This document shows positions 5,228 to 10,707 of a DNA stretch of 13,127 nt, piece by piece. The DNA comes from Bryobacterales bacterium (GTDB lineage Bacteria > Cyanobacteriota > Vampirovibrionia > Obscuribacterales > Obscuribacteraceae). Under the pieces are notes generated by a model. It had not been told where the DNA came from, made no database searches, and worked only from the letters and a program-made list of their open reading frames with translations. Each line of letters begins with the position of its first letter. Position 1 is the stretch's first letter. Both the position numbers and the translations under genes were made by a program. The DNA lies in contig CAJCHQ010000286.1 of the NCBI GenBank assembly GCA_903970295.1, forward strand, positions 1 through 13,127. The letters run 5' to 3'.

Positions 5228-6808
5228 TTAGCTGCCAAAAAGAATGAGCACGATGGTGAAAGTGCCACTATTCCAGAGCCCGTGCGCCACCATCGAGGGG
5301 ACAATGCTTTTCGTGCGTTCAAAAACAAAAGCAAAAATGCAGCCCAGAGTGAATAAAGGTCCGAATCCACCGGCATCGAAGTGACAAGCGGCAAATAAAA
5401 ATGCCGAGATCAAAATGGAGGGGACGACCGCCAGTTTTCGCCGCAGACTGCCATAGAGGAAACCACGAAAAAGTGCTTCTTCACAGAGCGGCGCCAGACC
5501 TCCCAGGGTCATATAAAAGATCGAAGTGGCCAATATGTTAGGCGAGCGAGCAGCTTCCATGACCAGACCAATGACCGGATTAGTAGAGCCTTGCGAGCCA
5601 ATCTTCATGGTTACGAAAACCGTGATCAACACAAAAGGAATGGCTGCGAACCAGGTGAGCAAACCGATCAAAATCAGTTGTCCCAAACCAGTGCGACCGA
5701 CTTGCAGGCGCAACTTAAGACCTTCGAAAAATTTGACACCGTGCGGGCGCATGGCAAATAACCAGGCATAAAGAAGGCTTGGTCCATTGCTGATGCAATA
5801 AAACACGGCCATCAGACAACCCGTAAAGAGCACCCCATTCTCGCCTGAAGCCGCCGTCTTCAACATGGCTGAGGCGGCGCTCCCCGATTTCAACGCGGTG
5901 CCAGCTGCCATGCCGATTAGCAATTGCGTCACCTGCCAGGCTAAGAAAACTGCATAAATCGATTTCCAGCCATAATCGACCGGTGCCTCGACCAGCACTT
6001 TGTCAGCTGGGGATGTGATTCGGCGGGCGATAAAGAGAAGCTGCGAAAAAATTACGATGACGCCGACCAGCACGGCGACTGCCCCAAAGGCCACCAGACC
6101 GACCAATTTGGCCACTAGAGTGACCGCTTTCTGGTCGAGATCGGCATTTAGTTGCGTCAGTTTGGCGGTCTGCCCGCTGACTCGATAAAGTTCAAGCAGT
6201 GAAGCATTACGATACCAGCCGGCGGGCATTTCTTTTTCTATAGCAGCGCCGATATCTTTCGCCTGATCAGCTGTAATCCGCTCGCCCGCTGATTTAGCAT
6301 AAATCTTAGCCAGTGCCGGTCCGATCGCTTTGTTCTGAGCCTTGCTGATTTCAACGAGGTGATTGAGATCGTCATGGGATTTGTGTTTGCTTTCGAAGTC
6401 GGTGACGACCAGTTTCGACCATATATTTGTCGATGACTTATCGAAATCAGCCGCTTTGCGCAATACTTTTTCTGCTTCGCCGTAGACGTCCGGCTGAGCG
6501 CTTTTGCGCAGCGGAGCGGCGACGGGCATGACGCTCGACATGGCGCGCTCACAACTGGAATTGATGCGCAACATCATCTCGGCGCGATCAGAATCGAGCG
6601 AGGACGAATTCTTCGCCAATTTATTTTCGACAAAAATTGATTTGCCTAGAGTTAAGCCGACGAAAATCGTGCCCAGTATGAGCAAAGCATTCGTGGCCAA
6701 ATTTTTGTTTTTGCCGGACAGATAGAGCCCAGCAAAAGCAATGGCAAAAACGCCTGCAACGCTATTGAGAATGAACTGAGGGTCCAAGACGGAGCGAAAA
6801 GCCTCCAA
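5228..6808 (-). CDS. CPBP-family (CAAX/Abi) intramembrane metalloprotease with long N-terminal extension
   Basis: The C-terminal part of this 526-residue multipass protein carries the CPBP (Rce1/Abi) glutamic-protease motifs: EEALFR (E443, E444, R448), a motif-2 histidine in FAACHF (H476), and H509 with N513 in the last helix. All key residues are present, so it is probably active. Before this come two N-terminal hydrophobic segments (about 12-31 and 38-56), a soluble mostly helical stretch (about 60-228), and further membrane segments from about 231. A typical CPBP protein is 200-300 residues, so the roughly 230-residue front part is extra. The only in-frame start after the upstream TAG is TTG at 6808; no good ribosome site precedes it, and a GGAGG immediately after the TTG may serve a later start. 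Substrate is unknown. Relatives process prenylated proteins, act in bacteriocin immunity, or process peptides. Confidence 0.88.
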   Translation of the reverse strand: MEAFRSVLDPQFILNSVAGVFAIAFAGLYLSGKNKNLATNALLILGTIFVGLTLGKSIFVENKLAKNSSSLDSDRAEMMLRINSSCERAMSSVMPVAAPLRKSAQPDVYGEAEKVLRKAADFDKSSTNIWSKLVVTDFESKHKSHDDLNHLVEISKAQNKAIGPALAKIYAKSAGERITADQAKDIGAAIEKEMPAGWYRNASLLELYRVSGQTAKLTQLNADLDQKAVTLVAKLVGLVAFGAVAVLVGVIVIFSQLLFIARRITSPADKVLVEAPVDYGWKSIYAVFLAWQVTQLLIGMAAGTALKSGSAASAMLKTAASGENGVLFTGCLMAVFYCISNGPSLLYAWLFAMRPHGVKFFEGLKLRLQVGRTGLGQLILIGLLTWFAAIPFVLITVFVTMKIGSQGSTNPVIGLVMEAARSPNILATSIFYMTLGGLAPLCEEALFRGFLYGSLRRKLAVVPSILISAFLFAACHFDAGGFGPLFTLGCIFAFVFERTKSIVPSMVAHGLWNSGTFTIVLILFGS

Positions 6809-6951: not shown

Positions 6952-6990
6952 GCTGCGATTTGAAGCTGCGATTTGAAGCTGCGATTTGAG
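6952..6990. repeat. Three tandem copies of a 13-bp unit
   Basis: The unit gctgcgatttgaa occurs at 6952-6964 and 6965-6977 exactly, and at 6978-6990 with only the last base changed. It sits in the gap between the 120-residue membrane-protein gene (stop at 6994) and the CPBP gene, just past the stop codon. It has no hairpin potential and no T-run. It may be replication slippage or binding sites. Confidence 0.9.
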
Positions 6991-8072: not shown

Positions 8073-9135
8073 TCAGCAAATTTCTTCAAAGTTATTGACA
8101 GCGAATGTCAAAGCGGGTGGCTGTGCGGCTAAGCTCAGCGCAGCAGAGTTGCATCAGGCATTGCAGGGGCTGACAGCTGGTTTCGATCCCAATTTATTGA
8201 CCAGTCTAGAAAATTTCGAAGACGCCGCCGTTTACAAAATTACAGAAGACCTTGCAATTATTCAGACGATCGATTTTTTCCCCCCGATGATCGACGATCC
8301 ATTTTTATACGGACAGATAGCGGCTACCAATGCCCTCTCTGATGTGTATGCCATGGGTGGCAAGCCAGTGATGGCGTTGAATATACTTTGCTTCCCCACT
8401 TGCGACTTTCCGCCTGCCGTAATTTCTGAAATATTGCGCGGCGGATCGAGTCAGGTAGCGGCTGCGGGCGCAATTATCGCCGGCGGACATTCGATTCAGA
8501 GTCCGGAGCCTATATATGGTTTGTCTGTAATGGGTATGGTAAACCCCTCAAGTATGCTCACCAACTGTGGTGCCAAAGCCGGCGATGACATCGTCCTTTG
8601 CAAAGCGATCGGCACAGGTGTGGCTTTGCTCGGCGTCAAGGCAAAAAGTGTATCGGCAGAAGCCGAGAAAAAATTATTTGACAGTCTCACAACTTTGAAT
8701 GACAAGAGTCTTTCGATCGCTTTGCGCTTTACTATCAATGCAGCCACTGATGTCACCGGCTTCGGTCTGGTCGGACATTTGCATGAGATGGCCAAGGCCA
8801 GTCATCTGCTAGCTATCTTACACAGTGAGCGCGTTCCGTTTTTGCCGGAAGCATTGCGACTAGCTGAACAAGGTTTTGTACCGGCTGGTGCTTACAGCAA
8901 TCGGCAATCATACGAGCAAATAATCACCTATATAAATGATGTGGATCTGGCCGTGATGGACCTTTTATTCGACCCGCAAACTGCCGGTGGACTCTTGCTT
9001 TCTGTTGCTGCTGGTGAAGCCGAAAAGCTGTGTCTGGAACTGAAAGAGAAAGGAATAGAAGCTGCTTGCATCGGTCGATTCGTTAAAGGCACTGCAGGCT
9101 CAGTCGAGGTATCGAAAAATGGAAAAGTCGCTTGA
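8062..9135 (+). CDS. selD: Selenide, water dikinase (selenophosphate synthetase)
   Basis: This 357-residue enzyme makes monoselenophosphate from selenide and ATP, the selenium donor for selenocysteine, selenouridine and selenium cofactors. The N-terminal catalytic pair C21 and K24 (AGGCAAK) align with C17 and K20 of E. coli SelD; the residue is an ordinary TGT Cys, not selenocysteine. Further signatures are TIDFFPPMIDDPF (69-81, metal-binding Asp), GQIAATNALSDVYAMGGKP (84-102), GGHSI (141-145) and DPQTAGGLLLS near the C-terminus. Length matches the family (about 345). The ATG at 8062 was chosen because it puts C21 at the expected distance; a GTG 18 codons earlier is possible. Neither start has a clear ribosome site. 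selD overlaps yedF by 17 bases, so the pair forms an operon. Confidence 0.96.
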   Translation: MQNDQQISSKLLTANVKAGGCAAKLSAAELHQALQGLTAGFDPNLLTSLENFEDAAVYKITEDLAIIQTIDFFPPMIDDPFLYGQIAATNALSDVYAMGGKPVMALNILCFPTCDFPPAVISEILRGGSSQVAAAGAIIAGGHSIQSPEPIYGLSVMGMVNPSSMLTNCGAKAGDDIVLCKAIGTGVALLGVKAKSVSAEAEKKLFDSLTTLNDKSLSIALRFTINAATDVTGFGLVGHLHEMAKASHLLAILHSERVPFLPEALRLAEQGFVPAGAYSNRQSYEQIITYINDVDLAVMDLLFDPQTAGGLLLSVAAGEAEKLCLELKEKGIEAACIGRFVKGTAGSVEVSKNGKVA

Positions 9136-9787
9136 TTTGCGGGGATTGATCTGCCCGGAACCCGTGTTGAGAACGAAAAAAGTTTTGGACGATCGTAATG
9201 TCGAAAAAGTAGAAGCGCTTGTAGAAAACGACATCAACGTCAACAATCTCACACGCTTGGCAAAGTCGTTGAAGATGAAGTCGCACAGCCAGAAAAAAGG
9301 TGATTGCTTTTTAGTCACGATGGAAAGAGACAAAGATGTAGATGTAGATGTAGATGCAGATGCGGTCAAGAATACGCAACAGTCCAATATGTCTCATGCG
9401 CATACAGAAGCAGCCACAGTTAAATCAGCACCTACAGCTGATGCGCAAACCGTCGGCACGGTCGTCTTCCTCGGCAAAGACAGCTTTGGTGAAGGTGATC
9501 CGGTTTTCAGCAAAACATTAATCAGTCTATTTTTGCAAACGATGTTAGAAGGCGGTCACAGGCCGCGGGCAATTCTCATGGCTAACTCCGGCGTAAAGAT
9601 GTTGGCCAAAGATTCAGCTTCGTTGAAGGTTTTGCAAGACTTTAAAGCAGCCGGAGTGGAAGTGCTCGCCTGCGGCTTGTGTGTCGAATTCTATAAGCTG
9701 AAAGACGAAATTCCCGTGGAGCAAATCACGAATATGTTTGCTATATGCGAATACATGTTCGCAGCTGACAAACTAATCGTTCCATGA
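9119..9787 (+). CDS. yedF: Selenium-metabolism sulfurtransferase-like protein YedF
   Basis: This 222-residue protein has two domains. Residues 1-70 are a TusA/SirA-like domain with the motif LDLRGLICPEPVLRTKK (5-21), including the conserved CPxP (C12). Residues about 111-222 are a DsrE-like domain, with GTVVFLGKDSFGEGD and the CGLCVEFY motif typical of selenium-associated YedF. In between is an acidic repeat (DVDVDVDAD) and an Ala/Thr-rich linker. YedF proteins of this type co-occur with selD in selenium-using genomes and are thought to carry or deliver sulfur or selenium as a persulfide or perselenide; the exact step is not established. GAGGT lies about 9 bases before ATG 9119. The start lies inside selD, so translation is coupled. 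Its last 15 bases overlap a small ORF on the opposite strand. Confidence 0.93.
   Translation: MEKSLDLRGLICPEPVLRTKKVLDDRNVEKVEALVENDINVNNLTRLAKSLKMKSHSQKKGDCFLVTMERDKDVDVDVDADAVKNTQQSNMSHAHTEAATVKSAPTADAQTVGTVVFLGKDSFGEGDPVFSKTLISLFLQTMLEGGHRPRAILMANSGVKMLAKDSASLKVLQDFKAAGVEVLACGLCVEFYKLKDEIPVEQITNMFAICEYMFAADKLIVP
9335..9364 (+). repeat. Hexanucleotide repeat in the yedF linker
   Basis: Three exact gatgta units (9335-9352) are followed by gatgca and gatgcg, encoding alternating Asp-Val then Asp-Ala. It lies between the TusA-like and DsrE-like domains. Unit changes keep the frame, so linker length can vary without breaking the protein. Confidence 0.9.
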
Positions 9788-9919
9788 ACCTCGATCCATA
9801 AAGTCGGAATCGAAATATCTGAAAACGATAAAAGCAACGATCATCGAAATTACAATAATCAAACTGATCACGGCAGCAGAAAGACCGTGAAACAAATCAA
9901 CAAGGCCGCCAATATCCAT
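9773..9919 (-). CDS. 48-residue single-helix membrane miniprotein
   Basis: The minus strand encodes a 48-residue peptide from ATG 9919 to TAG at 9773-9775, below the usual ORF size cut-off. Residues about 14-33 form one strongly hydrophobic helix (AAVISLIIVISMIVAFIVF), with a short amphipathic N-terminus (MDIGGLVDLFHG) and an acidic, aromatic C-terminus (RYFDSDFMDRG). AGGTG lies 7 bases before the ATG, and a TTGACA promoter with an operator-like palindrome lies 45-75 bases upstream. Its last 5 codons overlap the end of yedF in convergent orientation. No family is recognised. A ribosome site, promoter and clear transmembrane design together make this more likely real than not. Confidence 0.6.
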   Translation of the reverse strand: MDIGGLVDLFHGLSAAVISLIIVISMIVAFIVFRYFDSDFMDRGSWND

Positions 9920-9950
9920 GGATTCACCTGATGGGTTCCGGGCAGCTAGT

Positions 9951-9988
9951 CTAACAATTTACTTAAATAAAGGAAAGTAAATTGTTAG
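9951..9988. repeat. Perfect inverted repeat, 14-bp arms, operator-like
   Basis: CTAACAATTTACTT (9951-9964) is followed after 10 bases by its exact reverse complement AAGTAAATTGTTAG (9975-9988). The arms are AT-rich and no T-run follows on either strand, so it is unlikely to be an intrinsic terminator. It covers the -10, the spacer and the predicted start of the minus-strand promoter at 9966-9995, the usual place for a repressor site. Confidence 0.8.
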
Positions 9989-9995
9989 TTGTCAA
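9966..9995 (-). promoter_or_regulatory. Sigma70-like promoter of the 48-residue miniprotein gene
   Basis: On the minus strand a perfect -35 TTGACA (9990-9995) is followed after 18 bases by TTTATT (9966-9971), 4 of 6 to the -10 consensus. The expected start is near 9958, about 40 bases before ATG 9919. The overlap with the 14-bp-arm palindrome suggests repressor control. Confidence 0.5.
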
Positions 9996-10073
9996 GTAAA
10001 GAAGTGTCGTGTTCCTGACAGATTTTTTTCTAACACAGCGAAAATCCAAGGGGCAATTGTTGACCTTAAACTT

Positions 10074-10128
10074 ACCGATATCGGTGAGTTTTCATCGCCA
10101 GAAACCCCTCCAGCCGCATGGCGACTGG
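10074..10128. repeat. Two-motif module, copy 1 (palindrome A plus 17-mer B)
   Basis: Motif A here is the perfect 12-bp palindrome ACCGATATCGGT (10074-10085), followed by GA. After a 24-base gap from that GA comes motif B, AGCCGCATGGCGACTGG (10112-10128). The same pair recurs at 10180-10238. Outside A and B the copies are only loosely similar. The region is noncoding, downstream of convergent yedF and the SCP2 gene. Confidence 0.9.
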
Positions 10129-10143
10129 CTTTCGGCTTTTTTT
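10112..10143 (+). terminator. Terminator-like hairpin 1 (weak stem, seven Ts)
   Basis: AGCCG (10112-10116) can pair with CGGCT (10133-10137), directly followed by Ts to 10143. A competing inner hairpin pairs CCAG (10110-10113) with CTGG (10125-10128). The left arm is part of motif B. The stem is short, so efficiency is doubtful on its own. Confidence 0.4.
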
Positions 10144-10170
10144 GGCCCGAGATTTGCCGGGCCATTTTTT
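10144..10170 (+). terminator. Rho-independent terminator 2
   Basis: GGCCCG (10144-10149) pairs perfectly with CGGGCC (10158-10163) around an 8-base loop, followed by A and six Ts (10165-10170). It works only for plus-strand transcription. It is 357 bases past the yedF stop, so it ends either a long selD-yedF 3' UTR or a separate short transcript from this region. Confidence 0.65.
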
Positions 10171-10179
10171 CAGCCTAAA

Positions 10180-10238
10180 TTCACCGATATCGGTGAAATT
10201 TCGATAGATGGAATGCATTTAAGCCGCATGGCGACTGG
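10180..10238. repeat. Two-motif module, copy 2 (palindrome A plus 17-mer B)
   Basis: Motif A is an 18-bp perfect palindrome, TTCACCGATATCGGTGAA (10180-10197). Motif B, identical to copy 1 over all 17 bases, is at 10222-10238. The gap after the shared ...GGTGA is 25 bases against 24 in copy 1, and the two modules are offset by 109-110 bases. Unlike copy 1, no terminator-like T-run follows motif B. Confidence 0.9.
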
Positions 10239-10264
10239 ATTAGCGTCAGTAAACTGCGGCGCAA

Positions 10265-10675
10265 TTAGGCTGAAACGGCGCGGCCATTGGATTTGTAGAC
10301 ATCCGGGTAAATTTGGAACGCCGGCTTGATCGTCGGCAGGAGTGCAAGAGCTTTATTCACTGGGCCTTTGGCTACCATTTTGCCGGTCAAGATGGCCATC
10401 GGCACACTGACTTGACCTAACCAGAAATCATGCGCTACATCAGCGGTCATGGACATCTCCACGATCGGTTTCGCATCGTTATCGCCGGCATATATTTTCA
10501 TTTCCTGGCCGTCCGAGCTGTCGATCGTCATCGTCCCTTTTGGTTCGCGGTAGTGAAAGCGCACGATCAATTTTGAGCGCAGCAATTCTTCCGACATGGC
10601 TTTATCAGCCTTGATGCGATCCCAGAGTTCGACCATCACTTTATGTAGCTCTTCGGTGTTGGCATACGCCGGCAT
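10265..10675 (-). CDS. SCP2 sterol-transfer-domain protein
   Basis: This 136-residue protein consists of a single SCP2-like (sterol carrier protein 2) domain, a lipid-binding alpha/beta fold with a hydrophobic cavity. Recognisable parts are the strand region LIVRFHYREPKGTMTI (36-51) and a C-terminal block like other bacterial SCP2 proteins: ADVAHDFWLGQVSVPMA (78-94), followed by LTGKMVAKGPVNKALAL (96-112). The start at 10675 is chosen for AGAGGA about 7 bases upstream; a longer version adds 11 residues. There is no signal peptide, so it is cytoplasmic. The ligand is unknown. It lies 168 bases after the alcohol dehydrogenase gene on the same strand, with its own likely promoter, so a functional link is uncertain. 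Confidence 0.85.
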   Translation of the reverse strand: MPAYANTEELHKVMVELWDRIKADKAMSEELLRSKLIVRFHYREPKGTMTIDSSDGQEMKIYAGDNDAKPIVEMSMTADVAHDFWLGQVSVPMAILTGKMVAKGPVNKALALLPTIKPAFQIYPDVYKSNGRAVSA

Positions 10676-10707
10676 GGGTGTTCCTCTTGGATGGAAGCAA
10701 TACCGCA

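Follow-up and report, generated by a model that had tools for sequence, protein, structure and literature searches.

Duplicated palindromic intergenic sites are a known kind of sequence, and the array described here, which lies downstream of a gene for a sterol-carrier (SCP2) family protein, belongs among them. REPs and BIMEs consist of short palindromic units with a GTAG or CGTC tag at the palindrome end; in PMC3733652, REPs are reported to be grouped 20-100 bp apart, beyond the end of a coding region and flanked by genes of the same direction, and untagged REP-like families, cyanobacteria included, are mentioned as well. Intrinsic terminators and tandem small RNAs offer a further comparison through their hairpins. 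Tandemly duplicated dimeric operators, taken here as a general type and not as one specific family, repeat a two-fold symmetric site at near-constant spacing. Operators bound by dimers are commonly uninterrupted perfect palindromes, with no spacer between the arms, and REPs, which are looped, are unlike such palindromes. Set beside these systems, the array resembles REPs and BIMEs in its grouped short palindromic units and in its noncoding position, past the end of one gene and ahead of another read in the same direction, but it has no GTAG tag, has CGTC beside its second copy only, and follows a direct tandem A-B-A-B order. With duplicated dimeric operators it shares a continuous perfect palindrome and a near-constant repeat spacing, whereas each of its units holds two unlike sites and lies far from a promoter. 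Like terminators and tandem small RNAs it combines hairpins with a partial consensus fold, and a site resembling a terminator separates its copies; in contrast to them, this site with its T run follows copy 1 only, no Rfam match reaches the cut-off, and copy 2 alone is unremarkable on the plus strand. The best reading of the array, though a tentative one, is that it represents a duplicated pair of putative protein-binding sites.

Within the window, by which we mean the whole stretch of 13,127 bases that was analysed, two sites recur as a pair. Site A is ACCGATATCGGT, a 12-bp perfect palindrome at 10074-10085 in its first copy; in its second, the same core (10183-10194) is part of an 18-bp perfect palindrome, TTCACCGATATCGGTGAA, at 10180-10197. 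The window has no other perfect palindrome as long as this one; its three palindromes of 12 bp, copy 1 of A among them, are also exceeded by two of 14 bp. Site B is a 17-mer, an imperfect inverted repeat (AGCCGC-ATG-GCGACT plus GG), located at 10112-10128 and repeated exactly at 10222-10238. The exact recurrence of A and B as a pair, the two palindrome lengths and a module offset of 109-110 bases (109 for A, 110 for B) had all been given in the initial annotation and were confirmed; its spacing of 24 and 25 bases between A and B applies to the 14-mer ACCGATATCGGTGA that both copies have in common, but becomes 26 and 27 when counted from the 12-bp core. No third copy of A was found in the window with up to 2 mismatches allowed (shuffle expectation 0.23, two matches being reached in 5 of 200 shuffles), nor any of B with up to 3 (expectation 0.06, two matches in 1 of 200).

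The two sites lie within a longer duplicated unit, whose copies occupy 10050-10131 (82 bp) and 10159-10241 (83 bp) and are identical in 61 of 83 aligned columns, with a single indel of one base. The best local alignment between the halves of the gap scores 37, whereas 1,000 shuffles average 8.4 and never exceed 14. The left flanks match at 16 of 24 positions, a value equalled in 4 of 100,000 shuffles, and the stretch between A and B matches at 8 of 19 with the best placement of the gap (549 of 20,000 shuffles). The high alignment score and the flank matches together indicate that the flanks are diverged homologues. A tandem duplication did occur here, and it is old judging by its divergence; even with the lowest threshold set, Tandem Repeats Finder leaves the array unlisted, as expected at such a divergence between copies. 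Elsewhere in the window, a 21-bp unit is repeated 2.5 times in tandem at 1658-1709, towards the 3' end of the opcA frame, where the protein repeats AQSTQPG and the upstream end of a 337-aa frame overlaps; a 13-bp unit is repeated 2.9 times at 6952-6989, within short unassigned frames upstream of a gene of the CAAX-protease family (5228-6808, minus strand).

Identity between the copies is clustered. Outside the two identical runs, of 17 bases (B) and 14 bases (A plus GA), the copies agree in 30 of 52 columns, and when the 83 columns are shuffled both runs together appear in 188 of 100,000 trials, a test that compares two copies in one chosen alignment. The longest run of 17 is by itself much less rare (5,897 of 100,000). 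The flanks had been described as diverged while A and B were kept, and this had been attributed to selection on the motifs rather than to a recent duplication. A and B are indeed exact and identity is concentrated in them, but the flanks are still recognizably homologous, and the duplication is real, though old. With two copies to compare, the clustering supports selection on A and B but is no proof of it.

The array had been placed in a gap between yedF and the SCP2 gene, but that gap is not empty: it holds a previously unlisted minus-strand gene (9773-9919) for a 48-aa protein, a gene that the initial annotation leaves unmentioned and that overlaps by 15 bases the 3' end of yedF (ending at 9787). 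A protein search returned three homologues of this protein (MDIGG...GSWND), each of 48 aa and 83-90% identical, so the ORF is very probably a real gene. The product has no Pfam match; it is called membrane-type here on the basis of one hydrophobic stretch read by eye. A Shine-Dalgarno-like AGGTG, read from the sequence, precedes its ATG, and a candidate promoter on the minus strand (TTGACA-18-TTTATT, 9966-9995) agrees with 10 of 12 consensus positions; a stricter promoter scan of 9700-10400 listed no promoter, this candidate included. Overlapping the candidate promoter is an inverted repeat, CTAACAATTTACTT / AAGTAAATTGTTAG (9951-9988), whose 14-bp arms match perfectly across a 10-base spacer and which looks like an operator.

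On the other side of the array lies the gene of the SCP2 family protein (136 aa, 10265-10675, minus strand), assigned by its homologues and by PF02036, for which its score of 27 bits exceeds the cut-off of 21.3. Its stop codon (10265-10267) is 26 bp from B copy 2, so that the array sits just past the SCP2 stop, between two genes of the same strand, and about 80-245 bp upstream of the candidate -35 hexamer of the 48-aa gene. A plus-strand frame of 106 aa, the longest across the array, matches no Pfam family and returned no candidate homologue, hence the array is apparently noncoding; protein searches over the array covered this longest frame, and shorter ones of 20-57 aa are also present. A coding role for the 106-aa frame was rejected on the same grounds, and because offsets of 109 and 110 bases do not keep the copies in one frame. 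An intrinsic-terminator-like hairpin with a T run (10143-10170, plus strand) is located between the two copies, and 9700-10400 contains four terminator-like sites where shuffles predict 1.0. Finally, a perfect 11-bp inverted repeat (10168-10178 / 10265-10275) encloses A and B of copy 2, its outer arm being the 3' end of the SCP2 gene with the stop codon. Among the 120 listed of 133 SCP2 homologues found, the few that are named are Melainabacteria, Obscuribacterales, various cyanobacteria (MAG records) and "bacterium", which makes it probable that the window comes from a member of the Melainabacteria. The closest three among the matches listed (P0001-P0003, 91-96% identical) have a C-terminal V in place of the A of the window, which means that the SCP2-side arm differs there, and the 11-bp repeat is probably not a conserved structure.

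Searches for relatives of the module returned little. Rfam at curated cut-offs gave no match in the whole window, and with the limit relaxed to E 10, the stretch 9900-10330 yielded five weak matches, all far below cut-off; a known RNA or riboswitch was rejected for lack of any match reaching the cut-offs. Plasmid records held nothing matching 9100-10700, and 11 phage matches (E 0.1-0.4, covering 6-10% of 9900-10300) were taken as chance. The view that the module matches no known riboswitch or repeat family therefore holds as far as the curated Rfam cut-offs and the searched plasmid and phage records go. A pattern made of A, 18-46 bases and the 10-base core of B was found four times in a genome collection, in four unrelated bacteria and each time in a stop-free frame (longest 313-1259 aa). 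The A-B spans of the window also fall within a stop-free frame, of 109 aa, so a frame alone is no proof of chance, and the absence of wider similarity weighs more: the four were dismissed as chance because their module scores were 12-15, against 37 between the window's own two copies. In viral contigs, a looser A-B pattern gave four matches (module scores 11-14, longest frames 139-684 aa) and the 17-mer B gave one, with scores of 17 and 19 that reach barely beyond the 17-mer and a frame of 234 aa; all were taken as chance. The 18-bp palindrome had no match in these contigs, nor did they yield a relative through SCP2, YedF, the 48-aa protein or an SCP2 alignment built from the window protein and 27 of the 120 listed homologues. 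A text search of a paper collection found the A 12-mer in two papers, one of which also has CACCGATATCGGTG; both were taken as irrelevant, and neither has the 17-mer B.

Both sites are symmetric, and they are predicted to fold on different strands. With its flanks, A copy 1 would form a 10-pair hairpin on the plus strand (10068-10091, including one U-G pair), at -11.7 kcal/mol against -7.5 on the minus strand, and copy 2 is equal on both (-9.5). B prefers the minus strand, where it forms 8 pairs in copy 1 (-11.9 kcal/mol) and 6 in copy 2 (one G-U; -6.6); the corresponding plus-strand values are -7.4 and -4.0. This opposite preference makes sites acting as DNA somewhat likelier than one RNA. 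At -3/+3 of A, copy 1 has C-G where copy 2 has T-A, so that both members differ while symmetry is preserved at this pair, and another pair beside the core varies on the plus strand between U-G and C-G. Symmetry is imperfect at -1/+1 (T-G in copy 1) and at -4/+4 (A-T in copy 1, A-A in copy 2), and so survived change only in part. Consensus folds, predicted from the same two sequences that they compare, keep 17 pairs on the plus strand (7 in the A hairpin, 3 in a hairpin between A and B, 3 in the B stem, and 4 in a closing stem that hinges on the placement of a 13-column gap) and 15 on the minus strand (6 in B, 6 in A and 3 others), two on each strand being changed on both sides. Longer stretches fold more stably than shuffled sequence, with z of -4.6 for 10050-10290 on the plus strand (below all 200 shuffles), -5.6 for 9923-10264 on the minus strand (below all 100, the 14-bp repeat of 9951-9988 being included), -5.6 (plus) and -4.7 (minus) for 10168-10275, and -3.2 for 10052-10170 (plus). 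Copy 1 stands out on both strands (-3.3 plus, -4.0 minus), while copy 2 alone is little below shuffles on the plus strand (-0.95) and moderately so on the minus strand (-2.3).

All three options offered in the initial annotation, a paired binding site, an RNA element and a dispersed element, are kept here as the main readings. According to the preferred one, that of duplicated protein-binding sites, an ancestral unit of about 83 bp with two near-palindromic sites, A and B, whose centres lie about 40 bp apart, would have undergone tandem duplication in the DNA that separates SCP2 from the 48-aa gene on the minus strand, and the copies would later have diverged save at A and B. A would most likely be an operator recognized by a dimeric DNA-binding protein, and B another putative protein site; the resulting A-B-A-B array would regulate the 48-aa gene from upstream of its candidate promoter, or else may insulate that gene from SCP2 transcription. 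Such binding is suggested by the exact conservation of A, within the 14-base run, and of the 17 bases of B when the remainder has fallen to 30 of 52, and by the shape of A, a perfect palindrome without a spacer at both 12 and 18 bp. Regulation of the 48-aa gene is favoured in turn by its position, since it starts downstream of the array, is read from the same strand as SCP2 and has a candidate promoter of its own. What speaks against binding sites is the distance of 80-245 bp to that promoter, long for a simple bacterial operator, as well as the ability of both A and B to form hairpins and the imperfect symmetry around A.

The same arrangement could be explained if A and B were units of an untagged REP-like or BIME-like dispersed palindromic repeat, in tandem here just downstream of SCP2, a close though somewhat less probable rival. 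Grouping and position fit what PMC3733652 reports of REPs, and the untagged families that it mentions mean that the missing tag excludes tagged REPs only: GTAG and CTAC are absent from 10040-10290, and the lone CGTC there (10244) lies beside copy 2, with none beside copy 1. A dispersed repeat is nevertheless hard to reconcile with the lack of any further copy of A or B within 13.1 kb, with the absence of Rfam and plasmid matches and the short, weak phage ones, and with continuous perfect palindromes so unlike looped REPs. Another close rival, slightly less probable again, is that the array acts as RNA, whether as minus-strand hairpins of a transcript spanning SCP2 and the small gene or as a small RNA of some 120 nt read from the plus strand (roughly 10052-10170) that would end at the terminator-like site, copy 2 then being a decayed duplicate. 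The low folding energies of the whole array and of copy 1, the terminator-like site, the pairs changed on both sides and a shared 6-pair B stem on the minus strand are consistent with such a role. Any palindrome folds well regardless of its role, however, so these energies fail to separate RNA from protein sites or REP-like units; against RNA stand also the opposite strands preferred by A and B, the folding of copy 2 alone, unremarkable on the plus strand and moderate on the minus strand, the 11-bp repeat that has no equivalent around copy 1 and whose outer arm differs in the closest homologues, the lack of an Rfam family at cut-off, and a weak plus-strand promoter (9 of 12 positions, with a 19-base spacer).

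Least probable of all is a neutral tandem duplication whose identical stretches arose by chance or were kept alike through gene conversion. The window does hold other short local tandem duplications (1658-1709, 6952-6989), the comparison rests on two copies and the 17-base run alone is not rare, but both runs together are unlikely under uniform divergence, and the stretches kept are precisely the symmetric ones. A bolder proposal, that the array is a two-site cis-regulatory or RNA module unlike described families, specific to a melainabacterial lineage, which would control the 48-aa protein and have been amplified in tandem to strengthen that control, seems improbable, though slightly less so than neutrality.

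On present evidence the array is a modest local feature. If its sites turned out to be dispersed, they would constitute a new untagged palindromic repeat family; if conserved, they would offer a way into studying how genes are regulated in Melainabacteria, the non-photosynthetic Cyanobacteriota, and would link that regulation to a 48-aa membrane protein.
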